64,000 bases of DNA. Source: Gymnopilus junonius (lineage: Eukaryota > Basidiomycota > Agaricomycetes > Agaricales > Galerinaceae). The DNA is taken from assembly GCA_015501075.1 (NCBI GenBank), contig JADNYJ010000010.1:434001-498000 (forward strand). Reading direction: 5' to 3'. The notes below the pieces were generated by a model. The model ran no database searches. It saw only the letters and a list, made by a program, of their open reading frames with translations, and was not told where the DNA came from. Within the stretch, counting starts at the first letter, position 1, and each line of letters opens with the position of its first letter. The translations under genes were made by a program, and so were the position numbers. Of the stretch, positions 1-60,059 are shown in pieces.

Positions 1-1335
1 GTTCCTGATGCATCCAACCTCTGACTCTGCATCCTCTGACACAAGCATGATCATATCCTTGCTGGACACCCTGGACAAAATAAGATGACTAGTCTTATCC
101 TTTATGAATACACCTGGCCTGGACTATGAGACTTTGTGAAGAAGTATTGCAAATCATATATGACATGTATGCATTCCAAACCTCAATGACACAAACCCTA
201 TGGATTGCTCAAACAGCTCCCAATCCCTGAATGTCCCTGGAATTCAATATCAATGGACTTTATCAAAATCCTTCTGATGTCTGACAGACATGACGTGATC
301 CTAGTCATTGTTGACTGACTCACTAAGCAAGCTATATTCATTCTGACCACCTCTGCTTGCACCTCTGAAGACCTCGCCATGCTTTTCATCATTCATGTGT
401 TCTTCAAGCATGGCATCCCCGAACACATCACCTCCAACTGCAAACCTGAATTCATCTCCCATTTCTTCCAATCCTTAGGAAAAGCACTTGACATGAAACT
501 TCATTTCACTTCCGGATACCATCCTGAAGGTGATGGCCAGACTGAACGCACTAACCAGACACTAGAGCAATACCTCTGAATTTATTGCAACTATCAGCAA
601 GATAATTGGTCAAGTCTATTACCTCTTGCAGAGTTTGCTTACAACAATGCTCCTAGTGCTACTACTGGCATTTCACTATTCTTTACTAATAAAGGTTACC
701 ACCCTAACATGGCTATCCAACCTGAACATGACCTCACCTCTGCTTGTACTCACAATTTTGTTGTTGATCTAGATGAATTGCACAAAGAACTCAAGAATGC
801 TATTGCTGAATCACAAAAGTGTTATCAAGTCTCCACCAACCTCCAATGAACTCCGCCCCCTGACTTCCAAGTTGGACAGCAAGCATTCATCAAAGCAAAG
901 TTCTTCTGCACCACACATCCCTCCAAGAAACTCTCTGAAAAATATTACAGTCCTTTTGATATCATCGCCAAAGCTGGTACACACTCTTTTACTTTATGAC
1001 TTCCTGACTCCATGCACAGTGTTCATCCTGTTTACCATGTTTCTATGCTGGAACCATTTACTCCAAATGATATTCTGAATCAGACTCAATCTCCGCCTCT
1101 GCCTGTTGAAGTTGAAGGTGAAATTGAATATGAAATCACTGAAGTCCTTGACTCCAAGCTTGATCAACAATGCAAGTGCAAGCTATTGTACTTGGTTCAC
1201 TGGTTAGGTTATAAAGGCACCAATAAAGAACAATCCTGGCTCCTAGCTACCAAACTTGAACACATGCCCGACCTCATCTCCAACTTTCACTCTGCTTACC
1301 CCGACAAACCTGGACCCCTTTCATCTCTCACTTAG
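1..1335 (+). pseudogene. pol fragment: integrase core and chromodomain (decayed)
   Basis: The translation shows the integrase core of a chromovirus. A segment near 379-579 contains the HGIPEHIT and GYHPEGDGQTER motifs typical of Ty3/gypsy integrases, followed by the VYHVSMLEPFTP region and a C-terminal chromodomain (KLLYLVHWLGY, positions about 1190-1220). The C-terminus ends at the TAG near 1333. Reading is interrupted by in-frame stops, for example TGA in the GACTGACTC segment near 310-320, and many sit where the related copy has or implies CG. The integrase would insert cDNA and the chromodomain would target histone marks, but this copy cannot make an intact protein. Confidence 0.9.
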
Positions 1336-1444
1336 CTTATGATTCACCAAAAACCATCTTTAACAAAAAAAAAGACAAGTATATAGAAAAACAAAAAAAA
1401 ACTACAAGAAAAGAAAAAATTTTAAAACTCTACAAAACCAATAT

Positions 1445-2646
1445 CTACTGATGAGCACGCTTTGCTGGTGCCTCATACATCCTCATTCCTTCCAATCCTC
1501 TATCATCCTCATCCTCCTCCTCATCCTCCTCCTCATCCTTATCCTCCTCCTCATCCTCCTCCTCATCCTCCTCCTCATCCTCCTCCTCATCCTCCTCCTC
1601 ATCCTCCTCCTCCTCCTCCTCCTCATCCTCCTCCTCATCCTCCTCCTCATCCTCCTCCTCATCCTCCTCTGAATCTGATGACTCATCCCTTTTCCTCTTC
1701 AACACCTTAACCTCTCCCTTGCTCTCACTCCTCATTTCCACATCTGACCTCTCCTCCTCCTGTCCACCTATCACTGCTCCAACTATCTTCTTCTCTGAAT
1801 CCTCTGACTCATCTGACTCATCCACCTCAACCTTCTTCCCTGCATCTAAGGCTGCCAAACCCTCTCATATCTTCCGTTCAAATACTCTGCCTCTGCATCA
1901 ATCTCCTCCTGGTCCGATAGTATGTACTCCAATGCACTCAGTTCTGACAGTGCATATGGGGGATCTTGAATCCAGGACATGTTTTCCAACAAGTCCCAGA
2001 TCTCCCTCAGGTATTGAATGACATGCTCGATACCCAGCCCCTTCTGTGCCTCTGCCATCATCTTGGAATTGGGCTTTGCTGCCCCCTTCACCTTGGCTGG
2101 TTGTACCTCTGATCCTGCCTAACCCTCTGACCTCACAGCTCCTCTGCTGATATTGCAACCCTTGTGCTGCATTTGGCAGCACTTGCACAATGCTGCCTTG
2201 CTGGTTCCCTCCCTAAAAACAAATCACAAGTCAATAATTAAATCATAACAAAGAAAAATAAGAACTGGGACTTACCTTGGCCATAGGCACTTCACCTCCG
2301 CCCACACACACTGATCACAGATGACTCTGATCACTGCCTCATACACTCCGGCCAACTCCCGTGTTGTGATCACTTTCTACTGTGTCACAGCTGCCTTCTT
2401 CTTTGGCTGCACCTTCTTCTTCTCCTTTGCAGTTTTACTCCGCTGTGCCTCTGCTGCCTCCTCTGCCTCAGCATCCCTCTATGCTTCTTCTGCCACCCAT
2501 TCTGCCTCTGCACACTCCTCTGCCTCCCTTCACTTCTGCTCCATCCATTCTCACTTCTGATTAAGCTCCTCCCACTGGAGTGCAAGTTTCTGCTCTTGCA
2601 CTTTGAGGTCTTCGAGATCCTCTGAGTCAGAATTGGTGTGCAACAT
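1445..2646 (-). pseudogene. antisense accessory gene of the chromovirus (copy 1, decayed)
   Basis: The gene is read on the strand opposite to pol, from an ATG at 2646 to a stop at 1445, between pol and the 3' LTR. It corresponds part for part to the gene at 10375-11464: an N-terminal D/E-rich start (DSEDLEDL), a charged region, a Cys cluster, a conserved GTAAGT...TTTTTAG intron at about 2214-2275, the SWIQDPPYA motif, then a long acidic tail. The tail is enlarged by a 9-bp repeat. Stops and frame breaks mark it as a pseudogene. Function is unknown; it is not a gag or pol product. Confidence 0.75.
1504..1669. repeat. 9-bp tandem repeat (CCTCCTCAT)n inside the antisense gene
   Basis: A near-perfect run of the 9-mer CCTCCTCAT, roughly 17 to 18 units with a short CCT-only interruption, reads as Glu-Glu-Asp repeats on the minus strand. 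The matching part of copy 2 (about 11370-11402) holds only a few units, so this tract expanded in copy 1. Its open frames on the plus strand (poly-Leu, poly-His-Pro) are artefacts of the repeat. Confidence 0.95.
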
Positions 2647-2776
2647 ATCAATGGGGGGGAGGTAGAATGATAATACTGAAGAGAGGACCAAACAAAAATT
2701 TCAAAACAACCAAAACCAACCAGCATGTGACCATTCCCATGCACAGGCCTCAAGGTTCAGCCTAAGGGGAAAATAC

Positions 2777-3260
2777 TGTTATATACATGCCTCCAACCAA
2801 CTCCAATCTCTGACTATATGAACTCTGATCTTATGATCTCCTCAAAATACTACAAGTCCTGGAATATGTAGACACTTAGATTACATGTAGCTAGAGAACT
2901 CTGAGTAGTGCAGAATAACTTACATGTCTGCCTGCTCACTAGTACATGTATAGTCTCTGCTTAGTTTCCTCCATAGTATAAAAACCTTAGAACTATTATT
3001 AGGTACCTTAGTTCATATATTGTTCATTAATCAATCCACACTCTCTACTCTGCTCTCTCATTCTGACCCAACTCCAAAATTCAAGACAACGTCCAGACAA
3101 CAGAGCACAACACATATGTTGAAGCTGAAGTCTCAACCCTACATCTACATATGTTATGCTAAGACCAACTCCAACACCAACATACTCCAATGTAGCTCCA
3201 ACATGGATCTCCTCTGCTTGCTCTGCCCTTCTCTTCATTTAGATCATCCAGAACTTAACA
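2777..3260 (+). repeat. 3' LTR of chromovirus copy 1
   Basis: The 484-bp repeat has TGTTA...TAACA ends and aligns with both LTRs of copy 2 (in reverse) and with 38241-38700. A purine-rich tract (AAGGGGAAAATAC) precedes it. The TATA motif TATAAAAACC near 2980 and the AGTTCATATAT block about 33 nt downstream match the predicted start of the element's RNA. Many ancestral CGs appear as TG or CA. Confidence 0.95.
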
Positions 3261-9771: not shown

Positions 9772-10245
9772 TGTTAAGTTCTCGATGAAAGGAAGGGCGG
9801 AGTAGGCAGAGGAGATCCACATCGGAGCTACGTCAGAGTACATCGGTGTCAGAGTTGGTCTTAGCGTAACATATGTAGACGTAGGGTTGAGACTTCAGCT
9901 TCAACGTGTGTGTTGTGCTCCATTGTCTGGATGTTGTCTCAATTTCGGAGTCGGATCAGAACGAGAGAGCGGAGTAGAGAGCATGGATTGATTAATGAAC
10001 AATATACGAACTAAGGTACCTAATAATAGTTCTAAGGTTTTTATACTACGGAGGAAACTAAGCGGAGACCGTACGTGTACTAGTGAGCAGGCAGACGTGT
10101 AAGTTACTCTGCGCTACTCGGAGTTGACTAGCTACGTGTAATCTAAGTGTCTACGTGTTCTGGGACTTGTAGTACTTCAAGGGGATCATGAGGTCGGAGT
10201 TCGTATAGTCGGAGATCGGAGTTGGTCGGAGGCGCGTATATAACA
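9772..10245 (-). repeat. 3' LTR of chromovirus copy 2
   Basis: 474 bp, starting TGTTAAGTTC and ending TATATAACA on the plus strand. The polypurine tract is immediately inside (GTATTTCCCCCTTAG on the plus strand). Compared with the other LTR of this element it has more CG-to-CA/TG changes and one missing base in CTCAATTTC (9940/9941) where the partner has CTCGAATTTC. Confidence 0.95.
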
Positions 10246-10374
10246 GTATTTCCCCCTTAGGCCGAACCTTGAGGCCTGTGCGTGGGAATGGTCATGTGCT
10301 GGTTGGTTTTGGTTGCTTTGAAATTTTCATTTGGTCCTCTCTTCAATATTGTCATCCTACCTCCCCCCGTCGAT

Positions 10375-11464
10375 ATGTCACACACCAATTCCGACTCGGA
10401 GGATTTCGAAGACCTCGAAGACCTCAAGTGCAGGAGCAGAAACTCGCGCTCCAGAGGGAAGAGCTTCGTCAGAAGTGGGAGTGGATGGAGCAGAGGCGAT
10501 AGGAGGCAGAGGAGCGTGCAGAGGCGGAACGGGCAGCGAAGAAGCACGGAAGGTGGCCGAAGCGGAGGCAGCAGCAGAGGCGGAGAAAGCGGCGGAGGTG
10601 GAGCAGAGGAAAACCGCGAAGGGGAAGAAGAAGGTGCAGAAGGCAGCTGCGGCACAGCAGCAGGTGGTCGCGACGCGGGAGTCGGCCGGAGTGTATGAGG
10701 CGGTGGACGGAGTCATCTGCATCTGGTGCGTGCAGGCGGGGGCGGAGTGCCTATGGCCAAGGTAAGTCCCATTTAATGTTTCTTTGTTATGATTTATTTT
10801 TTTGACTTGTGATTTGTTTTTAGGGAGGGTACCAGCAAGGCGGTGTCGTGCAACCGCTGCCGAGTGCAGTGCAAAGCTTGCAAGACTGGTGGAGGAGCTG
10901 CGAGGTCGGAGGGTCGGACAGAGTCGGAAGTACGACCAGCCAAGGCGACGGGGGCGGCAAAGCCCAAGCCCAAGACGACGGCGGAGGCGCAGAAAGGGCC
11001 GGGTATCGAGCACATTGCTCGATACCTGAGGGAGATCCAGGACTTGTTGGAAGACATGTCCTGGATTCAAGATCCCCCATATGCACCGTCGGAGCCAAGT
11101 GCATCGGAGTACATACCATCGGACCAGGAGGGAAATCAACCGGAGGCAGGAGTATTTGAACGAGAGGTATGAGAGGGTCGTGGCGGCCTTAGACGCGGGG
11201 AAGAAGGTTGAGGTGGACGAGTCGGAGGAGTCAGAGGAGTCGGAGAAGGAGGTAGTCGGAGCGGTGATGGGTGAACAGGAGGACGAGGGGTCGGATGCGG
11301 AAACGAGGAGTGATAGCGAGGGAGAGGTCAAGGTGTTGAAGAGGAAAAGGGATGAGTCGTCGGATTCGGAGGAGGATGAGGAGGAGGATGAGGATGAGGA
11401 TGACGGAGGATTAGAAGGGATGAGGATGTATGAGGCGCCAGCAAAGGTGCTCATCAATAGATAG
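10375..11464 (+). CDS. Antisense accessory gene of the chromovirus: Cys-cluster protein with acidic tail
   Basis: The gene runs opposite to pol, from an ATG at 10375 (130 bp inside the 3' LTR) to a stop near 11464, tail-to-tail with pol, whose stop is 80 bp away. A canonical intron (GTAAGTCCC...GTTTTTAG, about 10762-10823) separates two half-motifs: C-x2-C-x6-C (CIWCVQAGAEC) before it and C-x2-C-x3-C-x2-C (CNRCRVQCKAC) after it. The N-terminus is acidic, then Ala/Glu/Lys-rich and probably coiled-coil. The C-terminal half holds SWIQDPPYAPSEPS and a long Glu/Asp-rich tail with a KRKRDE basic patch. A single missing base at 10425/10426 (ancestral CpG) breaks the frame early. A nuclear or nucleic-acid-binding role is inference only; no known function. 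Confidence 0.7.
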
Positions 11465-11544
11465 TAGTTTTGTAGTGTTTTAATTTTTTTCTTTTTCTAT
11501 ATACTTGTCTTTCTTGTTAATGATGTTTTTTGGTGAATCGTAAG

Positions 11545-14500
11545 CTAAGTGAGAGATGAAAGAGGTCCGGGTTTGTCGGGGTAAGCGGAGTGAAAGTCGG
11601 AGATGAGGTCGGGTGCGTGTTCGAGTTCAGTAGCTGGGAGCCAGGATTGTTCTTCATCGGTGCCTTCATAACCTAACCAGCGAACCAAGTACAATAGTTT
11701 GCACTTGCGTCATTGATCAAGCTTGGAGTCGAGGACTTCAGCGATTTCATATTCGATTTCGCCTTCGACTTCAACAGGCGGAGGCGGAGATTGAGTCCGA
11801 TTCGGAATATCATTCAGGAGTAAACGGTTCCAGCATAGAAACGTGGTAAACGGGGTGAACACCGTGCATGGAGTCAGGAAGTCGTAAAGTAAAAGAGTGT
11901 GTGCCAGCTTTGGCGATGATATCAAAAGGACCGTAATATTTTTCGGAGAGTTTCTTGGAGGGCATGTGGTGCGGAAGAACTTTGCTTTGACAATGCTTGC
12001 TGTCCGACTTGGAAGTCGGGGGGCGGAGTGCGTCGGAGGTCGGCGGAGACTTGATAATGCTTTTGTGATTCAGCGATAGCATTCTTGAGTTCTTTGTGTA
12101 ATTCGTCTAGATCAACAACAAAATCGTGAGCGCGAGCAGAGGCGAGGTCGCGTTCGGGGTGGATAGCCATGTTAGGGTGGTAACCTTTATTAGCGAAGAA
12201 TGGTGAAATGCCAGTAGTAGCACTAGGAGCATTGTTGTAAGCAAACTCTGCAAGAGGTAATAGACTTGACCAATTATCTTGCTGTAGTTGCAATAAATTG
12301 GAGGTATTGCTCTAGTGTCTGATTAGTACATTCAGTCTGGCCATCACCTTCAGGATGGTATCCGGAAGTGAAATGGAGTTTCATGTCGAGTGCTTTTCCT
12401 AAGGATCAGGAAGAAGCAGGAGACGAATTCAGGTCCGCGGTCGGAGGTGACGTGTTCGGGGATGCCATGCTTGGAGAACACATGAATGACAAAAGCATGG
12501 CAAGGTCTTCGGAGGTGCAAGCGGAGGTGGTCGGAATGAATATAGCTTGCTTAGTGAGTCAGTCAACAACGACTAGGATCACGTGTGTCCGTCGGACGTC
12601 GGAAGGATTTCGATAAAGTCCATTGATATTGAATTCCAGGGACGTTCGGGGATCGGGAGCTGCTTGAGCAATCCGTAGGGTTTGTGTGTTGAGGTTTGGA
12701 ATGCATACATGTCGTACACGATTTGCAATACTTCTTACGAAGTCTCGTAGTCCAGGCCAGGTGTATTCACGAAGGATAAGACTAGTCATCTTATTTTGTC
12801 CAGGGTGTCCGGCGAGGATATGATCGTGCTTGTGTCGGAGGATGCGGAGTGGAGGTCAGATGCGTCAGGAACATAGATGCGTGATTCATGACGGAGGTAA
12901 CCATCTGGATCAAGGGACCAGTGTGGTTTTGGTTCCTTCATGTGAGCAAGGTAAACTGGGTCGGAGGGTAGTGCAGTGAGGATGTTATGTCGGAGTAGGT
13001 CGGAGTCCATGAGGGATACTGCACAGGAGGGTGGGTTCAAAGAGTTGGGTGGCACGGAGGGATGCGGAGAGTTGTTCTTGGGTGAAAATAGGTCGGAAGT
13101 TGCTTGGGTTAATGCTTGCATAGTCGCTATTTCCCCCTTTGGGATAGATGTCCCATCGTCTAGTTAAAGAGTCAGGTTTCGTACCGAGACGTCCAGGGCA
13201 GAAGCGGATGATGAGGTTGAATTGGCAGAGATATTCGGACCAGTGGGCTTGTCGGCGAGTAAGAACTTTAGTAGTTGCAAAGTACGTTAAATTCTTGTGG
13301 TCAGTGACGATGTCGATCGGAGCGGCGGAGCCTTCCAGATAATGTCGCCATACTTTAAACGCGTCGAAGATTGCTAGTAGTTCTTTGTCGTGGGTGTCAT
13401 AGTTGATTTCAGGACCTGTGAAAGTACGTGAGTGAAACGCAACAGGGTGAATCTCATCATCGGAGGTGCGGATGGAGAGGATCGCTCCAAGCGCATAGTC
13501 GGAAGCGTCAGTTTCCACAATAATCGGATGGTCGGGAACCCAGTGAGTAAGTATCGGAGCAGTTGTAAACGCTTTCTTGAGCTTGTTGAAGGCTTTTCGA
13601 GCAGCGTCGTTGAATTGCCAAGGGGTTCCTTTCCTAGTGAGTCGGGTGAGCGGAACAACGATGTCGGAGTAGTCAGAGATAAATCGTCGGTAGAAATTCG
13701 CGAAACCTAAGAAGGATTGAACATCCTTAATCTTCTTGGGTTCGGGCCAATCTTGGATAGTCTTGATCTTGCTTTCATCCATCTTGAGGCCTTCTGGTGA
13801 AAGAATGAATCCAAGGTAATTAACCGTGTTCGTAGAGAAATTGCATTTGTCGGAGTGGGCATACAGACCGTGTTGTCGGAGACGTCGGAGGACTTCGCGA
13901 ACGTGTTCCTTATGCTGGGTAGGATCATCGGAGTAGATCAGGATGTCGTCGAGGTAAACGATGACAGACACATCTAATAAATCACTTAGTATGTCGTTCA
14001 TGAAGCGTTGAAAAACGGCAGGGCATTGGACAGTCCAAATGGCATAACGTTCCATTCAAACGATCCATAGCGTGTTCGGAACGCTGTTTTCCATTCGTCG
14101 CCTTCCGCTATGCGGACTAGGTGATAGGCATGTCGGAGGTCGATAGCCGTATAGATGCGTGCTTTACCAGCAGTGGACAGGAGGTCGGAGATGAGCGGAA
14201 GCGGATATCGGTCTTTCTTCGTGATCTTGTTTAATCCTCTAAAGTCAACGCAAAGTCGTAGTGATCCATCCTTTTTGCGAACGAAAAGGATCGGAGCGCC
14301 ATGCGGAGAGGTTGAAGGTCGAATGAAACCGATTGGAGGTGCTCGTCGATAAATTCTCGGAGGGATTGAAGTTCGGATTGCGAAAGGGAGTACATATTTC
14401 CAACGGGAGGGGAAGTGCCAGGTTCGAGATTGATCTTGAGGTCGTAAGGTCGATGGGGTGCGAGCGTGTCAGCTTTAGATTTACTGAAGACATCCGCAAA

Positions 14501-16563
14501 GTCATGGTATTCAGGAGGAATACTAGACAGATCAGGCGCTTCGTCGGAGACGGAAGCGGCATGAGCGGAGATGGCGGGATCGGAGAGGTGAACTGTGAAA
14601 CTTTGAGCGCCAGGTAACTTGCATGCTCTTGCGAAAGCAGCTGCGTTGATTAGCGAGACGCGAGGTGCATCAGAAGATGCTACAGAGGTCGGAGGGGTCG
14701 GAGGTGTAACCGTAGGGGTAGTCGGAGGAAGCGGAGGGGTCGGAGGTTCCAATAATGGAGGTGTAGGCAGCAGAGCTGGCCTATGGGATGACGTCGGAGC
14801 CGGGTTGTCAAGTAGTTCGGAACGGAAGTCGATACGGCCCAATTTCCAGTCAATCAACGGATTGTAGCGGAAGAGCCAGTTATATCCTAGAACCAGAACA
14901 CAGGAGGAGTCCAGCGAGGTTACGAAAAAGTCAATAGTAATAGTTTCACCGGAGGGAAATGTAATCGGAATGGAGAGGGTTTCAGTAATCATGTTGCCGT
15001 AGGAGCCATCAATCAGTTTGAGCTTAACCGGATCGATCGGAGAAGGGAGTAAATTATTAGAACGGATAAAACGGGTATCAACAAAACAATGGCTAGAGCC
15101 AGAGTCAATTAACGTTAGTGACTTAAGGTCGGGTCGGAGCGGAGATGTTAACGAGAGTCGGAGAGAGTCGGGGTCAGAAAGAGCGGACGCATTGAGCCTT
15201 ACTTCCTTCGTATGCACACAGCCAGTGTCAACGCGATCCCCAGTGTGTGCGAAGGGATGAGGACCGCTGACTATTTTTTTGAATCCTCGGTGCTGGGATT
15301 CGAAACTTTGGCGGCGCGTGCTTTTGCCTTGGAGGCGGAGGAAGTGGACTTCGGACACTCGCTAGCTCGGTGTCCAAGCGACCCACAGAAGAGACAGAGA
15401 TTGTTGTCGAAGCGGCGTTTGCGTTCTTCGGCGGTCAGCTTGCCATCCTTGCCAAGTTTGTCGGAGATGGAGTCGGAGGTTTTCGAGCCGGAGGAGTTGC
15501 CCGAGTTGTTCTTGCGGTAGGAAGAGGATTGCGAGGACTTATTGTTGTTGTTGTTATTGCCGTGGTTGTGGTTTGAACGTTTGTCGGAGGACTTGTCGGA
15601 GGTACGATCGGACGGTTTGTCGGAGGACCTTTGCGCATTCTTGTCCTGTCGTGGCTTCTCGCGACGCGTTCCCAGTAACGAGTGTCGATATCCTGGGCGA
15701 GCTCTCGAAGGTCTTCGAGAGTTTGTGGCTTGCCACGGCTAGCCATAACGTCCTTGATGCGTTCCGCCAGACCGGAGTAGTAGCGGTGTCGGAGAGCGAC
15801 GCTGTCCCAGCGCGAGCGAATAGACAAGCGCTTGAATTCCACGTTGTACTTGATGATCCTTTGGTTTTCAGGCATCTTCAAGTTTTCGAGGGCTACAGCG
15901 GCGTCGGAGGTCGGATCGAACGGACCAAATTCGGACTTCAGCACGCCATAAAGGCTTGCCAGTTGTCCATCCACGGTTCAATAGTTGTTGAGTCCAGTAT
16001 TGCGGGCTCAAAAAATTCCATCGCAAGGCCGCGAAGATAGGAGAGGGCGAACGTGACCTTGTCTTCATCGGCGGTGTAGGCGCGGTTGTTTCGGAAGTAA
16101 AGGTTACACTGTAAAATAAAACCGTTGAGTTTCCGGGTGTCGGAGCCGTCGAAGGTGTCGGGCTCGCGGGCTTTGGTCTTGGTAACCTTAGGGCTATCGC
16201 GACGCCTGAGCTCTTTTGTCATGAGCATCATGGCTTCAGCGAGATTCGGAGTGGGGTCGTGGTCGGAGTTGTGATCGGAATGATCGGAGTGATCGGAGTG
16301 GTGGGGGTCAAAATCGTCGCCATCATCGTCGGGGTGGGTTCACCACCAGGGGAACCAGGAGCAGGAGGTGGCAACGGGTTGGGACTGGGTTGTCTCGTTG
16401 ATGAAGGTCCCGAGGGTAGGGGAGTCAGAGTGCTGAGGCTGGACGGAGGTTGTGTGTTCGGACGGTCAGGGTAGTCTCTGACATTCTGAATCACAATAGT
16501 GCGGGATTCATTTTGTCCAGCTGCACGGGAGTTGGCAGTAGTACGGGATGTTGTGGTGGGCAT
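11545..16563 (-). pseudogene. gag-pol polyprotein of chromovirus copy 2 (frameshifted)
   Basis: The ORF starts at ATG 16563 and ends at 11545. Gag spans about 15350-16563 and ends with the zinc knuckle CLFCGSLGHRASEC near 15360-15400. Protease shows IDSGSSHCF near 15085; reverse transcriptase shows [10 protein letters not shown] and VYLDDILIYSDD near 13950-14050; RNase H has ETDASDYALGAIL; integrase has the zinc region and GYHPEGDGQTE; the C-terminus is a chromodomain (LYLVRWLGYEG). Frame changes occur at about 16334, 15947, 15280, 14334, 14022, 12687, 12584 and 11991, each explained by one missing base. TGA codons at about 12567 and in the chromodomain (about 11712) sit at former CGA codons. 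The protein parts are complete but this copy cannot be translated as written. Confidence 0.93.
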
Positions 16564-16587
16564 AGTCGGGAGTCCAGAAGCGGTATG

Positions 16588-16598
16588 AGTTCGTATAT
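16588..16598 (-). other. Self-complementary primer-binding site of copy 2
   Basis: Two bases inside the 5' LTR the minus strand reads ATATACGAACT. This is the exact reverse complement of AGTTCGTATAT at 16831-16841, the predicted 5' end of the element's RNA. An 11-nt match of this kind is the arrangement used by Tf1-type elements, which prime reverse transcription from their own RNA end and not from a tRNA. No match to a tRNA 3' end is evident at this position. Confidence 0.75.
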
Positions 16599-16600
16599 AC

Positions 16601-17074
16601 TGTTAAGTTCTCGACAAAGGAAGGGCGGAGTAGGCAGAGGAGATCCACGTCGGAGCTACGTCGGAGTACGTCGGTGTCGGAGTTGGTCTTAGCGTAACGT
16701 ATGTAGATGTAGGGTTGAGACTTCAGCTTCAACGTGTGTGTTGCGCTCCGTTGTCTGGACGTTGTCTCGAATTTCGGAGTCGGATCGGAACGAGAGAGCG
16801 GAGTAGAGAGCGTGGATTGATTAACGAACAATATACGAACTAAGGTACCTAATAATAGTTCTAAGGTTTTTATACTACGGAGGAAACTAAGCGGAGACCG
16901 TACGTGTACTAGTGAGCAGGCAGACGTGTAAGTTACTCTGCGCTACTCGGAGTTGACTAGCTACGTGTAATCTAAGTGTCTACGTGTTCCGGGACTTGTA
17001 GTACTTCGAGGGGATCATGAGGTCGGAGTTCGTATAGTTGGAGATCGGAGTTGGTCGGAGGCGCGTATATAACA
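16601..17074 (-). repeat. 5' LTR of chromovirus copy 2
   Basis: 474 bp with the same ends as the other LTR. It keeps more CpGs than the left LTR. It lacks one base in TCGACAAAGG (16615/16616), where the left LTR reads TCGATGAAAGG, so the ancestor was probably TCGACGAAAGG. Confidence 0.95.
16841..16874 (-). promoter_or_regulatory. TATA box and predicted RNA start in the 5' LTR
   Basis: On the minus strand TATAAAAACC (16865-16874) lies 33 nt upstream of AGTTCGTATATTG (from 16841). The spacing fits a polymerase II start at the A of AGTTCG. The same pair is present in the LTRs at 2777-3260 and 38241-38700. The start point is inferred from spacing and from complementarity to the primer site. Confidence 0.65.
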
Positions 17075-17765
17075 CCACCTCATTGCAGCTCACGCCTGGG
17101 CCCTAGGCAGAGTAGCCTATCCCAACGTGCCTATCAAGCAGCCTGCAAGATCTGCGAGCTTCCTGTATGTGTATTTATGCTCAATGTGCCATCTCACAAC
17201 ATGATCACGCAAGTCTTTAGAAAGCTGAGGAGCCATTGAGGACGAACAAGAGATGAGCGTCGTTAAGCCCTTGCTTATCTAGCCGATCACCAAAGCCATA
17301 TATAACCTTTGTTTGGTTGTGGGAAGTTACACGTGACCCTCAAAAAAATTCGGTTCCAATTCCAATTCAAACTAATATGCAAAACCCTGTATAATTTTTT
17401 GGAATTTCTGGTGAATACTGTCACCGACGTGCACGTGGCAAGCTCATCACAAAAACAGGAAAAATGTATAGGGGTATTACTTTGCGGTCTAAGAACAATA
17501 ATTTTGAACTGCTTTTCTACGTTCTTAAGACAGGAATATGAGTGTATACGAGTGTATATATTATAAGTAAACCAACCATTTCCGGACAAAATCCCCAAAA
17601 CCGGCCATTTTGTGGAACGTCCCTTTGGTCTAATGTCAGGGGTCCTGACAAAACCCTCTCTCTGTCACTACGTGACTACGAGTCGGGGAATTCAATTGTA
17701 AGCGGTTTATTGTGAATTGAGATTCTACGAAAATTACATTGAGATATAATATAATATTATACATC
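17075..17765. other. Intergenic region, no gene recognised
   Basis: Between the chromovirus end and the stop of the helicase gene there are only short ORFs without recognisable motifs. The stretch near 17700-17765 is A/T-rich, as is usual for a 3' end. Confidence 0.55.
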
Positions 17766-20700
17766 CTAATCTATCCTCCAAATCTCAGCAACTTGCGACA
17801 GATATTCATGGCCTTCGACTCGGAAGACGGTTAGGAGTTCCCGGTCGTGACCGGAAAAAGCTGTTGGGCGTTGAGTAGCCAGAGAAGGAACCCCGCCTCC
17901 AGGTAGCCGAGTCGTGGAAGAGAATGGCGAATCTATAGGTGTAGCTGCTCTCGACTGTTGGCGGGACTGGCTGGCGAGCCGCTCATCGTTATATCGGTTG
18001 AGAAGGGCCACAATTTCCCTCGTCATGATGTCCAGTTCCTTGATCTCTTGGCTAGAAAGGGTGTAGTCCTTATCCAAGTATTCGTCGCCAGATTCAAATT
18101 CATCCTCTTCCTCCCGGGGCAAAACAGGTAGCTTGTGTCCCCGTCGCTGACGGCTCATCGTAATACCCTCAAAAACACGAAGTAAACACGCTTCCATGGA
18201 TTTCTTCAGACGCTGAACGTCGTCCAAAACCCTCACCTCTCCGACAACTGGAAGCCACTCATCACACTCCAGACCCCGCTCGACTACTTCCACCTCATAC
18301 GCGCCGAACAAGATGTATGATAATGGGTCCAAACGGGTTGTCGTCACTAGGTATGTTTGGGAAGAGCCTGGCGTCGATAACGATTCATTCCTTCTTTTAT
18401 CAATGAATGCCAACAGTTGCTTCTCTTCAGGAGGGACGTCAGTCTGGTCCATTTCGCGCTTCCGGTGATTGACACTCGATGGATGGATAAGAGCATTCTA
18501 TTCAACGAGTCCCTAAGAAAGACAGCCAGCAAGAGAAAAAAATTGGCTGGCGTACCTTATCAATCGATGTTCGGTAGGTCCGTACACCAGAACGAACACC
18601 GAACTTGGGTTGACAAGCCACAGCAATCAACGCTGTCAGGAGAGGAAGAGAATTACCGTTCGCGTTTAAAGCACTTGGAACTATCAAGTTTCTTGGTGCG
18701 CCATCCGTATTCATGGAGCCACTAAATTGACCTCCTGCTGAAACCTCGATGACACCTGCACGATAAAGGGAGGCCAGCAAATGCCCCTTTACCTTTTGAA
18801 TCAAGAGTAAAGTCGGCTTCGATAAGAAGTTATCGACACAGAAACGATTTGCACTAATGTATTCACCGCGCGATTGCATAGCCCACCAGGCATTGTAGGC
18901 GCGTAGAGTCGCCAGGGCATCTGACCTGAATCCTTCTGGTGTCCATGAATTTTTCTTCTGTTGTGCTACTTCTTTAAGGTGCATTGGAGATAGGAAAGGA
19001 TCGCGATTCGTTAATATTGCGGCCAGCGTTAACGCATTATCTAAGCAACGGAAGAAACTGCCGAAAAGCACCAAGCGTCCCATCTGTGCGTCCACAGGCA
19101 GCTGTAAAAGCACTCGGCCGAGGGACGTCAAATTTTTCTCTGCATCGAGGGCTCCCGCCATTTGCAGGTCTTTTATGGCAGCGTGGACACGCCCAGGATC
19201 CGGTGCTTCGATGGCAGCGGCAAGAACTCCCTCTACGGTCATGCCAGTGAGACCCAGTGCCTTCACATGCATGACGACGTTGCTGAGGTCAACACGCTTC
19301 ATTTCTACAGTCTGGTAAGGACTAAGTGATTCCGCATGCGATTTGCTGAGGATACCGAAATATTCGCCTGATCGATGACGACCTGCACGACCTGCTCGTT
19401 GGTTCAGATTCGAAGTCCCTACCCAAGCGGAGACCAGCGACGACATATGTCTGTCAGGATCGTACCGTTGCTCTTTAACTTTGGCGGTATCGATGACATA
19501 TACGACATCAGGAATAGTAACAGAGGTTTCTGCTATATTCGTTGCTAAAATGATTCTGCGGACACCAGGGGCTGGGGGGTCAAATATAGCTTGCTGTTCT
19601 GCCAAGGGAATAGTTGAGTGCAAGACGTGTACCGAGTATTTGGGTGAATTGAAGTTGACAGTCAGAGGCCCAAGAGGCTGTTGTAGTGCCTTTTGGGTGG
19701 CAACGATCTCCTCCCATCCAGGAAGAAATACCAGCACATGTCCATCATCAGAAGTCTCGAGGACGTGCGCGATAGTTGCAGCGATAAAGGGATAAGGTAA
19801 CTCGAGATCATCCAAACGAACTTCGGCTTTGGGTGGACGGACACCCAGCTTCATGGCTTCTGGCTGGCCTAGTTCCTTGAATAGATACCTCTCAACATTC
19901 TCCTCTGCTACCACCCAACGCATGGGCCCGGTCAACAACTTGGGAGCAAAATCGTCCATGAAATATTTGGCGACAGGGAAGGACCGTCCTGGAACGTTTA
20001 TCACCCCGGCAGGATTGCCCGATTCATCGGCAAAGTAACGTTGGAAGAGGGTAGGGTCAATGGTAGCACTCATCAAGATAATCTTCAGCGTTTGATTCTT
20101 CGCCTTCTTCTGTGCCAAAATTTGTTTGAGAACGACCAAGAGTAGATCCGTGTCGACGTCGCGTTCGTGAACTTCATCCACAATTATATGTGTAATCTTA
20201 TCAAAATTAGCCTTCCCGTCCTGACCTGAGAGTACCGTATGCAGACGCTTCAAAAAGACACCAGTCGTGCAAAATGTGATCGAGCCATCCGGTTCAGGAT
20301 GCTTTGCGTCGAAGCGGACTTGGTAACCGACTGACTGTCCGACAGCCTCGCCTCGCTCGTTAGCGACACGATGGGCAACACTGATAGCAGCTAGCCTCCG
20401 AGGTTGTGTGCATATAACGTTACAGTTTGCACCTTCTCCTCGTTCTATGTAATCGTCTAAAATCATCTGCGGGATTTGCGTCGTCTTTCCTGAACCAGTG
20501 GCAGCCATACATATCGTTATATCATTATTCTCGATGTGTGACAAGACCTCCTTGGCCTGTGTATACACAGGCAATGATGCTCGGGTAGAACGCATGCGCT
20601 CCAGATTTGGATCAGCCAAATACGCTTTCCGTTTCTCAGACAGTCGATTCGACTTGGTTTCTAAGATGTGCTGGAAATTCTTTCCATGCCTAATGTTATA

Positions 20701-37834: not shown

Positions 37835-38240
37835 TGTTAAGTTCTTGATGAAGGGAAGGCAGAGGGGATCCACATCAGAGCTACATCGGAGTATGTCGGT
37901 ATCGGAGTTGGTCTTAGCATAACATATGTAGACACAGGGTTGAGACTTCAGCTTCAACGTATGTGTTGTGCTCCATTGTCTGGATGTTGTCTTGAATTTC
38001 GGAGTCAGATCGGAATGAGAGAGCAGAGTAGAGAGCATGGATTGATTAATGAACAATATATGAACTAAGGTACCTAATAATAGTTCTAAGGTTTTTATAC
38101 TATGGAGAAAACTAAGCAGAGACCATACATGTACTAGTGAGCAGGCAGATGTGTAAGTTATTCTGCGCTACTCGGAGTTGCCTAACTATGTGTAATCTAA
38201 GTGTCTATGTGTTCCGGACTTGTAGTACTTTGAGGGGATC
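37835..38240 (-). repeat. Truncated LTR of the same chromovirus family, minus orientation
   Basis: It begins TGTTAAGTTC like the copy 2 LTRs and follows them to TTTGAGGGGATC, then stops. The last roughly 60 bp (ATGAGGTCGG... to TATATAACA) are missing. It abuts the plus-orientation LTR directly, so the two form a large hairpin. CpGs are mostly TG/CA. Confidence 0.9.
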
Positions 38241-39674
38241 TGTTATATACGCCCTCCAACCAACTCCGATCTCCAACTATATGAACTCTGACCTCATGAT
38301 CCCCTTGAAGTACTACAAGTCCCGAACACATAGACACTTAGATTACATATAGCTAGTCAACTCCAAGTAGCACAGAATAACTTACACGTCTGCCTGCTCA
38401 CCAGTACATGTACGGTCTCTGCTTAGTTTCCTCTGTAGTATAAAAACCTTAGAACTATTATTAGGTACCTCAGTTCATATATTGTTTGTTAATCAATCCA
38501 CGCTCTCTACTCTGCTCTCTCATTCCGATCCAACTCCGAAATTCGAGACAACATCCAGACAACAGAGTGCAACACACACATTGAAGCTGAAGTCTCAACC
38601 CTACATCTACATATGTTACCTAAGACCAACTCTGACACCGACATAGCTCGACGTGGATCTCCTCTGCCTACTCTGCCTTTCCTTCATCAAGAACTTAACA
38701 GTATATATGAACTCATACTGCTTCTGGACTCCAGACTATGCCCACCACAACATCCCATACTACTGCCAACTCCCGTGCAGCCAGAAAAATGAATCCTGCA
38801 CCATCATGATTCAGAATGTCAGAGACTACCCTGACCATCCAAACACACAACCTCTGTCCAGCCTCAGCACTCTGACTCCCTTACCCTCGGACCCTCATCA
38901 ATGAGACAAACCAGTCCCAACCCGTTGCCACCTCCTGCTCCTGGTTCCCCTGGTGGTGAACCCAACCCCGATGATGATGGCGATGATTTTGACCCCCACC
39001 ACTCCAATCACTCTGATCACAACTCCGACCATGACCCCACTCTGAATCTCGCTGAAGCCATGATGCTCATGACCAAAGAGCTCAGGCTCACAATAGCCCT
39101 AAGGTTACCAAGACCAAAGCCCACAAGCCCGACACCCAGAAACTCAATGGTTTTATTTTACAGTGTAACCTTTACTTCCGAAACAACCACGCCTACACCG
39201 CCGATGAAGACAAGGTTATGTTTGCCCTCTCCTATCTTCGCGGCCTTGCGATGGAATTTTTTGAGCCTGCAATACTGGACTCAACAACTATTGAACTGTG
39301 GATGGACAACTGGCAAGCCTTTATTGGCATGCTGAAGTCTGAATTTGGTCTGTTTGATCTGACCTCCAATGCCGCTGTAGCCCTCAAAAACTTGAAGATG
39401 CCTGAGAACCAAAGGATCATCAAGTACAATGTCGAGTTCAAGCACTTGTCTATTCACTCACACTGGGACAGCATCACTCTCTGACACTGCTACTACTCCA
39501 GTCTGGCGGAATGCATCAAGGACATTATGGCTAGCCATGGCAAGCCACAAACTCTCGAAGACCTTCGAGAGCTTGCCCAGGATATTGACACTCATTACTG
39601 GGAATGCGTCCATGAGAAGCCCTGACAGGACAAGAATGCACAAAGGTCCTCTGACAAACCATCCAATCATACCT
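38241..39674 (+). mobile_element. Chromovirus copy 3: LTR plus partial gag
   Basis: A 460-bp LTR (38241-38700, TGTTATATAC...GAACTTAACA) is followed by the primer site ATATATGAACT at 38703-38713 and by gag. Similarity to copy 2 ends at about 39674, within the gag region, and no 3' LTR follows. In this copy both the RNA-start block (AGTTCATATAT, 38472-38482) and the primer site changed by CG-to-CA/TG yet stay perfectly complementary. Confidence 0.92.
38710..39674 (+). pseudogene. Partial gag of chromovirus copy 3
   Basis: The reading matches gag of copy 2: a Pro-rich N-terminal part (PPPAPGSPGGEPNPDDD), then FALSYLRGLAMEFFEPAIL, WMDNWQAF and KSEFGLFDL, ALKNLKMPENQRIIKYNVEF. It is truncated before the zinc knuckle. 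Stops such as TGA near 39482 sit at former CGA codons. It lacks an 18-bp segment near 39138 relative to copy 2, between two GACACC direct repeats, and one base at a former CpG near 39087. Non-functional. Confidence 0.88.
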
Positions 39675-40130
39675 CATCAGGAAAAAGGGTCTTGTCTCTC
39701 AGAATAGACAAGAGTTGTGAGAAGAACAACAGAGAAAGCAAGAGAGCCTCAGAGCAGCTAGAGCTCCAAAGGGTGCCAGACAGCCACAGAGCAAAGTCTT
39801 GACCGTGGGTCCTGAGGCCAATTTCTCTGAGGTGCTCTAAGATGCTTCTGCAAGCCCTCTAACAGTCTGGAGATCCCTCAAGACTCTTTGACAGATTGGG
39901 AATTTTTTGTTCTCCATTGCTCTGACAGGCTCTGACACTCTCTAGGACAACATGTGGGAGGCAAATAGAATATATTTTTATTGCAATTAGGAAAGAATGT
40001 ATGTAGTGTGCTCTTTAAAGTAGTGAGGCCCAGGGAACAAGGAGCACATGAGGCAATAGAAGACAGGAAAAGAGATAGTAAAGTAGTACCCATCTAATAT
40101 GTGACCAGAAATGAAGCATCAATGACGTTG
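39675..40130. other. Noncoding stretch, no gene recognised
   Basis: Sequence between the truncated gag and the stop codon of the DUF6532-like gene. Short ORFs have no recognisable content. It includes the 3' end of the minus-strand gene. Confidence 0.5.
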
Positions 40131-42509: not shown

Positions 42510-45500
42510 CTACCTATGGCCACTGTAATGGTCATCATCATCCATGACAAATCGAAATGTCGCATTGTCAAGCCATCCATTTCCATTTTTCTCCCAACCT
42601 TTCATGCATTTGTCAGTATGAAGGACCAAAGAAATGCGCTTCCCTTTGAAGTGAAGGTTCAGGTGGGTAAAAGCTTTGGAGGGAAAGACCACCACATCCC
42701 CACTCCTCATTCTCAAAACGACACCGGGTTCGACCAAGACCAGCTCTCCGCCTACGCAGTCCGAGATGATGAGTACCAGGCAGATGTCTTTGTCCCCAGT
42801 GTCTCTGTGCATGCGGGTAGAGACATTGACATTGAGAACGAAACCAGCGAATGGGTACACGGGGGACGTAGTGCTGTTCGGAAGGAACTGCACGCTGATG
42901 GACAGGGAGAGAAATGTGTCTGGGAAAAGGCGTTTTAACTATATTGAAGACATCAGCATTGGCCTGCGAAGTCATTGGCAATTAGCTTACAGTTGCATAG
43001 ATCCACTCAAAGACCGGACACAAAGCATCCAACAGCATTTGATAGACCTCTTGATTATCTTTGATTTCTTTGCTAAGCCTGGGGACATTCAGGCTTGTGT
43101 TGACAGGTCTTCGGCCATCCCTCTGTAGTGTAGAAGGATCTGCAGTAGAAGGAGCTCCGTACCCCTAAAGACAAACATTCATTAAGCTGACTGACGAGGA
43201 AGACCAATCCGGGTTTTAAACTCACATTCTTGGCAAATCTGGGGTACCATGAGGCATGAAGAGCACCGAATATGTTGTTGATGCCTTCAGATTCGGTGTC
43301 GACGTATTTGACTTGGCCGGAGAGGATATATTCCATCTTATGCAGCAATGTATCCCTCATAGAATCCTTCATATGATCCCAAAACATTAGAAGGAGGTTG
43401 CCGTTGGCATCGTTGATATGCAACATTTGCCTGAACACCCTTAGTCAGACAGAGATGTCATTGAGAATTGGGAAAGCAAGAACATACCCTTCTATAATTC
43501 TGTAATCAAGACCCAGAAAAGTCTGGCGATTGGGTCGCTTGCCACTGGTGAGTTGCTTTCGATACTATATGAGTGTGGTGGTCAGTTTAAGTCCAAGTTA
43601 GATAACAGGGAAATGATAATGTACCCGCTTCTCAAACTCTTCAAGAGTCTCCGGGTAATCTGCTTTTGCAGCAAACCCCCTTTGGCGCTCTGTTTCTTCA
43701 AACCTTCCTTCAAAATCAGTCAGATAAAAAACCCTAGTATTGTAGTCGAGCTGAGGCTTGAAGTTGACTTTGAACATGTATAGCAGTTCATCATCCATAC
43801 TTGAGTTCCAGTCCAGAGGAGTCACCTCGTCATCAGATTCTGATACATCATCCTCTTCTTCGCCAGCAAGAACATGACTGCTGCTCTGTGGGTGACCAAT
43901 AGGCTGCTGGGCTTGAGGAGTGGTCATGGGAGTGGCCATCATCATGGGGGTAGCAGGTGCAGTGGGCCTAGACGGAGTGGCAGGTGAGGCATCTCTAGGA
44001 GGAGTAGGGAGGTAGTTGTTGTTGTCTGAGAGCATATGGCGACCACAAGGACCAGCTTCTCTGGCAGCTTTGATTGCAGCTGAAAAGTCGACAGGCGTAA
44101 AAAGGCTGGTATTCAGCAGATCAAGAGATGGACCTCCTGGAAGTTCAACTTGCAGCTGACATTCCGCCCAAGCATCCCAGTCCCTGGCCTTGATGAAGTC
44201 ACTGTTCAAGCAAATAAACCCAATGCACATGGAGAGATTTAAGGCCTACTTACTTGAATAGCTTGAAGCTATCGAATATGGTGTCTGTCATAACCAGGTT
44301 CGTGCAATTGACATCCTGGGTGACATAGAAGGACTGCAGGAATTCTGTCGGAAAGAAGCAGGTCATGCGAAGGGGATACTTCTGTTGAAGCATGGCAATG
44401 GCAGGAATGACATTCTTCCTTATCAGCATTCCGAGAGGGGACTCTATAAACGGAGTCAACTGGTGGACAGATTGACAATTGTAGCAATGGACTTACTGCT
44501 AGGAAAGCGTATGAAATGCGCAATCACTCCAATAGTTGCTGCATCAATACTGAGCAACTTTGTCTTGAGTTTTGCGCATGCAATCATTACAAGAAGGTAC
44601 ATAGACCCTATTTTCTAGTCAGCCTTTAGATATTCACAAGAAAGAATAGAGACTGACCAGCACTAGCCATTCTGATGGCTACCAGCCCATGAAAAAGGTA
44701 GATCCTTAACTTCCATCGAGGTAGTTTTGTTCGGGTTCAAGGTCATTCCAAACATCACTGATTAAGTATCCATGGTGAGCATTCAGAAACCTACAATAAT
44801 ACATTAGATTGGTGCCATCATGAATCGAAGTGGAAGTTGAACATACCGCTGTATCAGGCAGGCAAGTTTTATTGCATTTAAAAAATAAACAAGCTGAAGA
44901 AGAGCTTCAGTCTGCTCTGCCGCATAGCATGCATCTGCAAAATGGCTGATCCTCCCTAGAATATCGTCGGCTGAAGGTGCATTGCTGACGCCATTGAAAA
45001 ATGCCAACAGCTCTTCAACTGAGGACTTCCCACAAATGAGTTGTAATAGTTGCTCCGGCTGGCCAATGAACATCACTTCCTTCTCTTTCCTCTTCCCCTT
45101 CCCCTTCAGCTTCTTTCCTGGGCTAGGATGTAGGCAGATGTCCCCGAGGGAGTCCAATGCAATGAAAAACTGACGAACAGTCATGTCAGGAGGAGGGTCT
45201 TCTGCAATGGGCATAGCACTTGCATTCGAATATGTGGGTGGTCCTCTCGGCCTGTTGCGCTGTCGTCCATCTCCTGGTCCAGATTCAGGTCAGTCGCTGG
45301 CAAGAAAAGCATCTAGATTTTTGTCTCTTGGGGCGTCGTTTTGAATCAGAGCATTGGCGGTTCTGCAAGGGCGGTTGGGCTCGCGAATAGTGTTTGCACT
45401 TGCTCGAGGACAATAGTTGGGGAATGCCACACCCCATCCACCCCATCCACCACCACCACCACCACCACCACCACCTCCTCCTCCACCACCACCACCACCA

Positions 45501-55234: not shown

Positions 55235-58200
55235 ATGCCACATTTCCCAGATGATGACTTCCCTGGCTGCCCTGCTTGCTCCAAGATCTTCAAGACCTTC
55301 CAAGGACTCAATGCACATCTCTCCTCTGCAAAATCTTGTGAGTGGTATAGAAAGGGCAAAATCAAAGCCTTTGGCCTGGACGACGTACAGCCATTGCCGG
55401 ATCCAACGCCATCCCCGTATAATCTAGATCAACCTATACTGCAGCAACAACTTGCTGAAGAGGCAGCTTCTTCATTTGACTGGGATTCGTCAGATTGGCC
55501 TGACTTGGAAGAGGGAAATATTGATGTCCTGCCATCAGAGGATATCGATCGAGATGAGTTTATCCTCTTACCCAATGAGCCACAGGCAGGACCTTCCCAA
55601 CCCAACAGATCCCATCCTAACATGCACAGGTCTCTGGATGATGATGAGGATACTAGAGAGGAAGCTCCTTATCCTGGTGCGGTCAGATCTTCGGCATGCA
55701 GACCAGCAATTCATAACAACAGATCCAGAGGCGACACTAATGCAAGATCCTTTATCTGAGCATCATCCTTTCAACTCAGAGCTGGACTGGAGATTTGCCG
55801 AATGGGCTGTGAAGGATGGACCTGGCCATAATGCTGTAAATCGCTTGCTCGCTATTCCTGGAGTACGCCGTCTTTATTATTGTTGAAAGAATATTCTCAC
55901 TGCATTAGGTCAAAGAAAAACTTGGATTATCATACAACAATGTTCGCGCCTTACATCAGAAAGTTGATTCAATCCCTGAATGCTGGAGATTGGCAAACAT
56001 GACACCTCTCATTCCGAGACCGACCAGAGGAAGTGTACACTATACGTTTCAGAGATCCTGTTGAGGCTGTCAAGAGTCTTTTTGCCAACCCCGCATTTGA
56101 GAAAGAGAGAGTCTATTGTCCAAAAAAGTCTTCACTGATGAAGGGAGGAAGTCCAGAATATTCTCCGAGATGTGGACAGGTAAATGGTGGCATGCAGTTC
56201 AGGTGATCAATCACTTTGGTGATGAATTGCTTGGTCGCTCATTTTGTTGATGCCTACTTAGAACCTCCTGCCCAAGGGTGCCACCATTGCTCCTATCATA
56301 TAGCAACAGACAAGACACAGCTCACCCAGTTCTCTGGTGGAAAATCAGCATATCCAGTGTATCTGACATTGGAAATCTGCCAAAAGCGACACGGAGGAGG
56401 CCCAGTCAACATGCGTGCATCTTAATCGCTTATCTCTCTGTGACAAACTCAATCGATCAGAGATGACTGAGGCAGAACACCGCTCAAAGGTCCAGCATAT
56501 ATTCCATGAAGGATGAGCATTGTGCTTCACCCTCTGAAGAAGGCAGGAAAGGAGGCATCCGAATGACTTGCAGTGATGGAGCAGTCCGGCTGGTCTTTCC
56601 AATCCTTGCATGCTATGTGGCGGACTACCCTGAACAATGTCTCGTTGCCTGTACTAAGTACGGCACTTGCCCCAAGTGCCGTTGTCCAGCCAAGGAACTT
56701 CAGGATCCTGCCGTATCACCTCCTAGGACTAAAACATGGACTCAGCAGATCATCAATGATGCAAAGGCCCAAGCTCAAGGGTCTCCTCAGGTGTTCCACA
56801 AGGAGTGCATGGCCAACGATGTTGCAGGTGGAGTCTTTACCCCGTTTTGGCAGGATCTTCCATTTGCCGACATCCATAAAGCAATTACGCCAGACATTCT
56901 TCGCCAACTTTATCAAGGCATCTTCAAACACCTGGTTGGTTGGTGTCAAAGCATCGTGGGTGAAAAGAAACTAGACCAAAGAATTCAATCTCTTCCTTTT
57001 GGCAATGGGCTCCGGCATTTCAAGAACGGCATTTCCAATCTCTCACAGATCTCAGGATCAGAACAAAAGAATATGGCGAAGATACTTCTAGGTTGCTTGG
57101 TCAGTGTTATGGCCACTCCTGGAATCAAGGCCATGAAGGCACTGCTTGACTTCATATACCTTGCGCAGTATCCAACTCACAATAACGAAACTCTGGGCTA
57201 TTTAAGAACTGCTCTGAAGGAATTCCATGATAACAAAAGCTACTTTGTCAACGTCAAATGCCGAGAACATCTGAATCTTCCCAAATTACATTCTCTTTCC
57301 CACTACATTGAAAGCATTGAGCTCTTCGGAACAACTGACAACTACAACACTGAAATGTTCGAACGTCTTCACATTGACTTTGCTAAGCATGGTTGGAGGG
57401 CCACCAATCAATGGGATGAATTTCCGCAAATGATTCATTGGCTCTGTCGGCAGGAGAAGATCACATTTTTCAATATGGTTATCCAGCTACGAACCACAAA
57501 GCCCCAGTCTACAGGCTCTCAGATACCCAGCTTATCCCAACCTCTTCGGGCAATTGCTAAACGCCCTGACTACCCTAGGCAAGCTATCACCCACATTGAA
57601 ACTCTTCATAATGCCCCTCATTTTTCCTTCCACCTGAAGAAATATTTAAATACCTTTTTGGATCCTTCACCACTTCGTCAACGTGCTCTGGAGACTGCAG
57701 CTTTGCCAATCACCCATCTTGATGTCTACAACATGTTTCGCTTTCACCGGGTGGCTTTACACGATGAAATTGAAGGTGAAAAGGATATTGTCAGGGCCAT
57801 GCCAAAGTCTGCAAAGCTTCCAAATGGCCGTTTTGATACAGTTGTTGTAATGACTACTGATGAAGCAGAATCACATGGTCTTGCAGGTGCGTAGGCAAGG
57901 TTCTTCTCTGAGTTTCAGTACTCTAATTTGCACTTAGGGACAAGAATAGGCCAGTTGAAAGTCATTTTCTGCCTTCCGGATTTGATACCTGCACCTGGAG
58001 CACCAATCCCAGCACCGGAAGCCTGGCCTAAAGTTCCACTTGCATATGTTGAGTGGTATACCCGCTTACCATCTGAACCTTCTGTCCAGCATGGTATGTA
58101 TAGAATCTCTAAGCCCAAACCAGAGGCTAGTGGGCACCTACTAGGTGAAGTTCTCCCAGTAACCAGCATCAGGCAAAGTTGTATGCTCTTCCCTGTATTC

Positions 58201-59273: not shown

Positions 59274-60059
59274 ATGGCCAACAATGCTCTCCTCTTTTCT
59301 CCCACTGCAGGGCATCCGTTTCTTTCCCCTCAGTCACCAGAAGTCTTGGACCTTTGTATACAGTGCTGCAGTAAACCCCGAGCAGGTACTAGAGTAAGAA
59401 GGTGCCACCAGTGTGCAAAGGCAGTCTATTGCGTTCATGTTTTGTCTTGTCTATTCAGTACAGCACTAACTCTGTTGTAGAAAAACAGCTGCCGATCAGA
59501 GGCACTCCCCATCCACCACTTTGTCTGCAATGCGGATCTGTGTCCAGTGGATTTTTGCCTGGCAAATGCATGGCTTGAAAAGTATCGCCACATTGTTGGC
59601 CTCTTTATCATTGCAATGCTCAACATTCCTCCAATCACATCCATTCCATCCATTCAGGCCCTCGCTGATTGCTATGTGTTTACATTCACCCTGGCCATGA
59701 CTCAGGGTCGCCCATGTGCACCCGATTATACCAAGGTTCGCTTGGACATCTCCTCCCAGTTCATGATGCCTGCTGATATTCTGCCAGTGGAGTACTTCAC
59801 CTACCCAGGCCTGATCACTCCAGGACCCAACCAGGTCTTTTTTAAGATTGGTTGCAAGATATTCTCTTTCGACCACCGCTGTGAGCCAGTTATGGCCTTT
59901 CAGACTTTGAATGTTGACAAGGAAATCTTTTCCTTTGATTATGGTGTACCTAGTGCCCAGAATCATTGTGTAGAGCTTCTGAAGCTCTTGGTTGTATGGA
60001 ATGAACATGAGTGGCATAGAGCAGCAGGAACAGCCTGTGCTTGTCATCCAGATATGTAG
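59274..60059 (+). CDS. MYND-type zinc-finger protein
   Basis: Exon 1 (ATG 59274 to about 59431) ends within C-x2-C...C-x2-C-x4-YC (CIQCCSKP, RCHQCAKAVYC). A 48-nt intron (GTTCATG...TTGTAG) joins the rest of the finger (KNSCRSEALPIHHFVC), completing the MYND spacing. Exon 2 continues about 180 residues to TAG at 60057 with no recognised domain. MYND fingers bind proline-rich partners. The donor GTTCAT is unusual. The gene sits between two broken mobile genes but its own frame is intact. Confidence 0.65.

Follow-up and report, generated by a model that had tools for sequence, protein, structure and literature searches.

How a retrotransposon copy that looks young comes to carry a series of one-base gaps, most of them at CpG sites, is the question raised by this locus of Gymnopilus junonius. 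The window, that is, the whole stretch of 64,000 nucleotides analyzed (C2:434001-498000, in an assembly of 58.0 Mb and 898 contigs), holds a copy with both long terminal repeats (LTRs), here copy 2, and parts of two others. A preliminary description had placed every one-base deletion alignable in copy 2 on an ancestral CpG. At issue are how far this bias extends and whether the bases were lost by the organism or by its assembly.

The element and its copies

The following features of the window are referred to below; the CpG class of gaps is defined in the next section.

9772..17074, minus strand: copy 2, a Ty3/Gypsy-type LTR retrotransposon (self-alignment, reverse transcriptase [RT] and RNase H domains, weak protease)
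16601..17074, minus strand: 5' LTR of copy 2 (assembled length 474 bases), with a CpG-class gap at 16615/16616
15435..16600, minus strand: gag-side piece of copy 2, used for the family search (41 matches listed, including itself)
12985..14055, minus strand: RT/RNase H open frame of copy 2, used for the family search
9772..10245, minus strand: 3' LTR of copy 2, with one CpG-class gap, at 9940/9941
1..3260, plus strand: copy 1, truncated by the left edge of the window (CpG observed/expected 0.12-0.19)
37835..39675, plus strand: copy 3, fragmentary, its two LTR pieces inverted relative to each other

Among the hallmarks of Ty3/Gypsy elements, an LTR pair, RT and RNase H were found in copy 2. Integrase (rve) matches adjoin the RT piece in other copies, for example on contigs C856, C457, C149 and C896; among the 150 of 331 genome candidates that were scored, none was listed for copy 2 itself. 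The CpG observed/expected ratio of copy 2 is 0.99-1.26 across 10001-17000 in the CpG profile, by which the copy is apparently young. Its LTRs are 96.2% identical and differ by 2 gaps and 16 substitutions, 15 of which are CpG transitions. The RT/RNase H piece has 40 listed matches including itself, the other 39 at 88-98% identity, and identity to both search pieces is mostly 88-99%. Copy 1 is CpG depleted, and one-base gaps are few in its aligned parts. At 37835-38700, copy 3 consists of adjoining inverted LTR copies (84% over 872 bases, 91% over 321).

Same-locus duplicates or alleles were considered and set aside, the flank at 17075-18600 having only short matches elsewhere. Likewise, the 5' flanks of 28 of the 30 gag-side loci gave partial matches only and no same-site pair (two loci are cut by a contig end).

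CpG bias across the family

The best 30 of 40 listed matches to the RT piece and the best 30 of 41 to the gag piece were cut out with their flanks; this choice under-represents badly broken copies and leaves the two query pieces with fewer gaps. Seven pieces, making up the first 5.56 kb of the element, were aligned separately (31, 30, 34, 35, 30, 27 and 22 copies), giving 209 piece-copies and 164 kb. We excluded matches covering less than 85% of a piece or differing from it by 60 bases or more in length, gaps at most six columns from a piece end and, for the 377 gaps reported below, those with another gap at most five columns away. Columns gapped in more than 30% of copies were treated as insertions (40% for the 3' part of copy 2 and the LTR pairs, 35% for copy 3). 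A CpG-type site is a column pair where CG, TG or CA is read in at least 85% of copies and CG itself in two or more, and a gap that falls on one, if need be after sliding within a run, is of the CpG class.

Such an alignment, with deletions counted by site type, was the check put forward with the preliminary description, and the CpG enrichment holds family-wide. The seven pieces contain 377 isolated one-base gaps, 268 of them at CpG-type sites, compared with 76 expected from random deletions; this amounts to 71% observed against 17-23% per piece for random deletions under the same sliding rule. Without sliding, 216/377 (57%) are still of the CpG class, against 13-17% for random deletions. The same holds when distinct gap columns are counted (210/300) and for events in columns with no other gap (128/192); against a null of about 20%, the binomial p is below 1e-40 for each of the three sliding-rule counts, the events being not quite independent. 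Per kb of bases, one-base gaps occur at a rate of 8.26 for CpG, 2.29 for GpC that is not part of a CpG, 1.76 for other C/G and 0.69 for A/T. The main column letter at CpG-class gaps is C in 118 cases, G in 113, T in 28 and A in 9, and both strands are hit. The CpG bias of the one-base gaps is thus real and statistically strong.

A second family (seven copies, 3.3 kb) gives a similar picture: 34 of its 49 isolated one-base gaps are of the CpG class, while CpG sites make up 9.9% of columns. Here, a CpG site is one with at least one CG, the baseline is the column share rather than the sliding null, and the partial copy L005 was dropped. Individual copies of this family carry from 0 to 16 such gaps.

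Gaps in copies 2 and 3

Copy 2 was examined over 7.0 kb, with 11201-11514 outside coverage, against 21-34 other copies per piece in the 5' 5.56 kb and nine others in the 3' 1.43 kb. It has 18 isolated one-base gaps, of which 14 are of the CpG class (11 of 15 in the 5' part and all 3 in the 3' part), compared with about 20% expected; the bias described for this copy therefore stands, while the claim that every deletion lies at a CpG does not. Of the 11 sites that had been named firmly, 10 proved to be gaps (16615, 16334, 15947, 14334, 14022, 12687, 12584, 11991, 10425 and 9940), two of them shifted by one base in the alignment, since runs make placement ambiguous. Nine of these 10 are of the CpG class; at 12687, only one of 26 family copies reads CG, short of the two-copy threshold, and the other 25 read TG. 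The remaining site, 15280/15281, had been read as a deletion, but copy 2 is ungapped there, and the frame change must have another cause. Eight further gaps were found, five of the CpG class (15663, only after sliding, 12850, 12490, 12299 and 10537) and three outside it (12736, 12284 and 11962). A deletion near 12743 that had been called less clear is probably the gap at 12736, one of the three outside the CpG class.

The LTR and gag part of copy 3 (plus strand) has seven one-base gaps, five of them at CpG-type columns, near 38252, 38323, 38619, 38888 and 39087. Of four places that had been pointed out before, the three near 38325, 38619 and 39087 are borne out as one-base gaps by the alignment.

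Independence from transitions and age

Basidiomycete transposable elements are subject to RIP-like CpG hypermutation, a substitution process. The repeats studied here undergo rapid CpG-directed decay (window 9772-17074; L040/L069 and L043/L072) and resemble that system in that CpG to TpG/CpA transitions dominate the LTR differences in six of six pairs (CpG transitions to other substitutions, 15:1, 6:1, 5:2, 21:0, 7:3 and 31:20). One pair of copies differs at 0 of 897 non-CpG positions and at 41 of 167 CpG columns. RIP-like hypermutation is substitutional, however, and the one-base gaps are independent of it.

Across 51 copy groups, CpG transitions track private non-CpG substitutions (rho 0.63, p 9e-7). 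The same substitutions correlate neither with CpG deletions (rho 0.04) nor with non-CpG deletions (rho 0.04), and between groups CpG deletions do not correlate with CpG transitions (rho 0.07). Across 43 copies, a grouping that differs from the 51 groups in that 15-kb binning splits some copies in the latter, CpG deletions are likewise unrelated to the decayed fraction (rho 0.06). Within copies, they do not follow transitions either (z -1.6). Deletions per CpG transition are highly uneven between copies (chi-square 221, 50 df): at extremes picked from the table, eight groups together have 1348 transitions and 5 CpG deletions, and copy 2 has 48 transitions and 11. An early impression that deletions accumulate with the age of a copy, as the biological reading would have it, was not borne out by these wider correlation tests.

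Imbalance, coupling and patchiness of the gaps

One-base deletions outnumber one-base insertions by 377 to 10 (13 insertions by a looser rule). Copies rich in CpG deletions also tend to be rich in non-CpG deletions (correlation of the two rates, rho 0.73 for 43 copies, 0.51 for 51 groups), and the two kinds co-cluster within copies, to a degree reached by 25/2000 permutations in one run and 56/5000 in another. Each kind is also patchy by itself: the clustering sum is 656 versus 494 +/- 21 for CpG deletions (0/2000 simulations) and 183 versus 149 +/- 8.5 for non-CpG deletions (1/2000). The copy on C524, for instance, has about 1.9 kb without CpG deletions and then 35 in 3.2 kb, and that on C856 has 1 in 5.56 kb and then 6 in the final 1.4 kb. 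Copies on C199 and C57 are further gap-rich examples, and those on C668 and C445 are gap-poor. Non-CpG deletions reach 4.09 per kb in runs of at least 5, based on seven events, versus 0.5-1.3 in shorter runs.

Longer host contigs have lower deletion rates (rho -0.36, p 0.016, 43 copies). As a simple predictor of gaps, however, contig size was abandoned, the effect being real but weak and non-monotonic: CpG deletions per site in rising size classes are 0.032, 0.017, 0.013 and 0.018, and exceptions include the gap-rich long contigs C57, C446 and C346 and the gap-poor short contigs C414 and C189.

Closely related copies can differ sharply. The sisters L006 and L007 of the second family are 18 CpG and 16 other substitutions apart, yet every one of the 21 gaps of 1-3 bases belongs to L007; L006 has two longer gaps, of 7 and 22 bases. 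Five of the 29 letters missing from L007 lie opposite a CG of L006, CG letters making up 3.9% of the sequence. Duplicate pairs of 1.4 kb each on C545 and C112 show no gaps within pairs and, across the pairs, none over about 870 bases despite 29-30 CpG transitions. Both pairs are integrase bearing and in opposite orientation, with L079 (C112:141900-143300) and L080 (C112:160500-161900) lying about 19 kb apart and L077 and L078 on C545 about 12 kb apart; the identities over about 1.4 kb are 100% and 99.8%, respectively.

Origin of the gaps

The preliminary description had named two explanations, one technical and one biological, of which the former is favored by our results and the latter fits badly. 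We consider it likely that most gaps are deletions in the consensus of a long-read assembly that was not fully polished, an error that CpG methylation probably aggravated. The missing bases would mostly be present in the organism and would have been lost in the assembly consensus where polishing was incomplete. Poorly polished stretches would suffer a general deletion bias, which is seen also at non-CpG bases and in long homopolymer runs, and a stronger bias would be added at CpG, where 5-methylcytosine in retrotransposon copies may be mishandled by the base caller or the consensus model. We prefer this technical account to the biological one because the gaps show no tie to transitions or to a mutational clock, are coupled to non-CpG deletions, are patchy and come with few insertions. 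The CpG bias, the deletion excess, the patchiness, the link to non-CpG deletions and the independence of age are all observed here; we infer the use of long, noisy reads, the methylation of the CpGs and its role in raising the error.

Long-read consensus deletions, including modified-base errors, are similarly deletion dominated, patchy, present at homopolymers as well and independent of age. The usual cases concern bacterial Dcm/Dam sites and homopolymers, whereas here the sites are CpGs in fungal transposons. A minority of the gaps may nevertheless be real, for example some of those common to two or more copies. Carriers of the same gap column tend not to be closely related: their non-CpG distance is 0.86 of the average (median 0.76), and 26% of 99 such pairs are at less than half of it.

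Two simple predictions of consensus error, a constant rate per intact CG and an excess where short reads cannot be uniquely placed, are at odds with the data. The number of deletions per intact CG increases with decay, from 0.015 in the best preserved copies to 0.076 in those most decayed. The error model then requires lower methylation or higher coverage in young copies; uneven methylation or coverage could mask a constant rate. Among model fits, a constant rate per site is best (logL -379), ahead of proportionality to transitions (-423) and to intact CG (-433). Along copies, CpG deletions are not tied to the intact CG count (z 0.7). Nor does decay alter the proportion of deletions that fall at CpG (slope -0.03, with an interval spanning zero), and the drop suggested by raw bins (19:5 to 30:19) was not significant once copies were resampled.

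As for short reads, whose failure to polish repeats had been part of the technical explanation as first worded, no trend with distance to the nearest copy was seen (rho -0.03), and CpG deletions are lowest, at 1.06 per kb, in stretches with a near-identical counterpart in another copy. That gaps are no commoner in near-identical copies speaks against failed short-read placement, an argument relevant to hybrid polishing alone. Context dependence is frequent among systematic base-calling errors. Here, the NCGN context has no strong effect (0.015-0.073), and at gap sites a median of eight other copies retain CG although all ten neighboring bases match; an error would therefore have to be stochastic, as thin coverage would make it, and not dictated by context.

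The main biological alternative, which we regard as unlikely, is that deaminated or oxidized 5-methylcytosine is excised and that bypass of the abasic site, or its repair, slips by one base. Base-excision repair of these bases with such a slip would act at methylated CpG on both strands, and the gaps share this strong CpG specificity and strand symmetry, occur in old and young copies alike and lie in a genome whose six LTR pairs display CpG-directed decay after insertion. In copies more than 60% decayed, a C or G is left at 97/112 gap sites, so that the gaps fell on CG or removed the decayed base, and the fit per transition is somewhat better than that per intact CG. In addition, four DNA methylase-family and 20 Tet_JBP matches occur in the genome (of the Tet_JBP matches, 11 are above the cut-off and several have internal stops); they make CpG methylation plausible and are silent on the gaps. 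A repair slip, however, predicts deletions in proportion to transitions, and these ratios are as uneven as reported above, with no rise of deletions with transitions between or within copies. It further predicts no coupled non-CpG deletions, contrary to what is seen, and offers no account of the scarcity of insertions or of the sisters L006 and L007. The TET/JBP-like gene reported in the window corresponds to a weak match (42618-42863, minus strand; 25.7 bits against a cut-off of 34.9), and nothing was found to link it to the gaps.

Real deletions might also arrive in bursts on particular copies, for example by a repeat-directed premeiotic process, and so be decoupled from the count of transitions. 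Bursts would equally give patchiness and overdispersion between copies, and CpG decay can far outrun other substitutions, as in the copy pair whose differences are confined to CpG columns. Yet a CpG burst should not carry non-CpG deletions along and should add CpG transitions to the same stretch, neither of which is the case, and we deem this variant very improbable. Deletion directed at CpG in vivo, with bursts included, is thus doubtful as a whole. We hold to the assessment of the repair slip as unlikely, rather than lower still, partly because a simple artefact would predict another dependence on intact CG than the one seen. Chance or misalignment, with gaps sliding onto variable CpG columns, has a negligible probability: placement is ambiguous in runs, and for 52 of the 268 CpG-class events the assignment depends on sliding, but the random-deletion null refutes it (17-23% against 71% with sliding, 13-17% against 57% without).

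Implications

If the gaps are errors, the disruption of transposon frames in such assemblies exaggerates the death of elements, and dating by indels or calling "pseudogenes" in methylated repeats is unsafe. The combination of CpG-biased gaps, independence of age and a large excess of deletions over insertions would then provide a cheap check that needs the assembly only. If, on the other hand, the gaps are real, they would represent a new way of silencing repeats: methylated transposon CpGs would lose single bases in vivo, in bursts apart from CpG transitions, as a frame-breaking counterpart of RIP-like mutation, a proposition that we think improbable.

Other features of the window

Some long host frames in the window are uninterrupted, such as that of an 890-codon helicase. 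An Rfam scan of the window gave nothing at gathering thresholds. A fragment of a Plavaka transposase, a type that points to a basidiomycete host, lies with a DUF6830 match at 56506-57894, in a low-CpG region. An open frame of 358 codons, lacking any Pfam match, is located at 60001-64000, where the CpG depletion is the strongest of the window (observed/expected 0.06-0.17 per kb).
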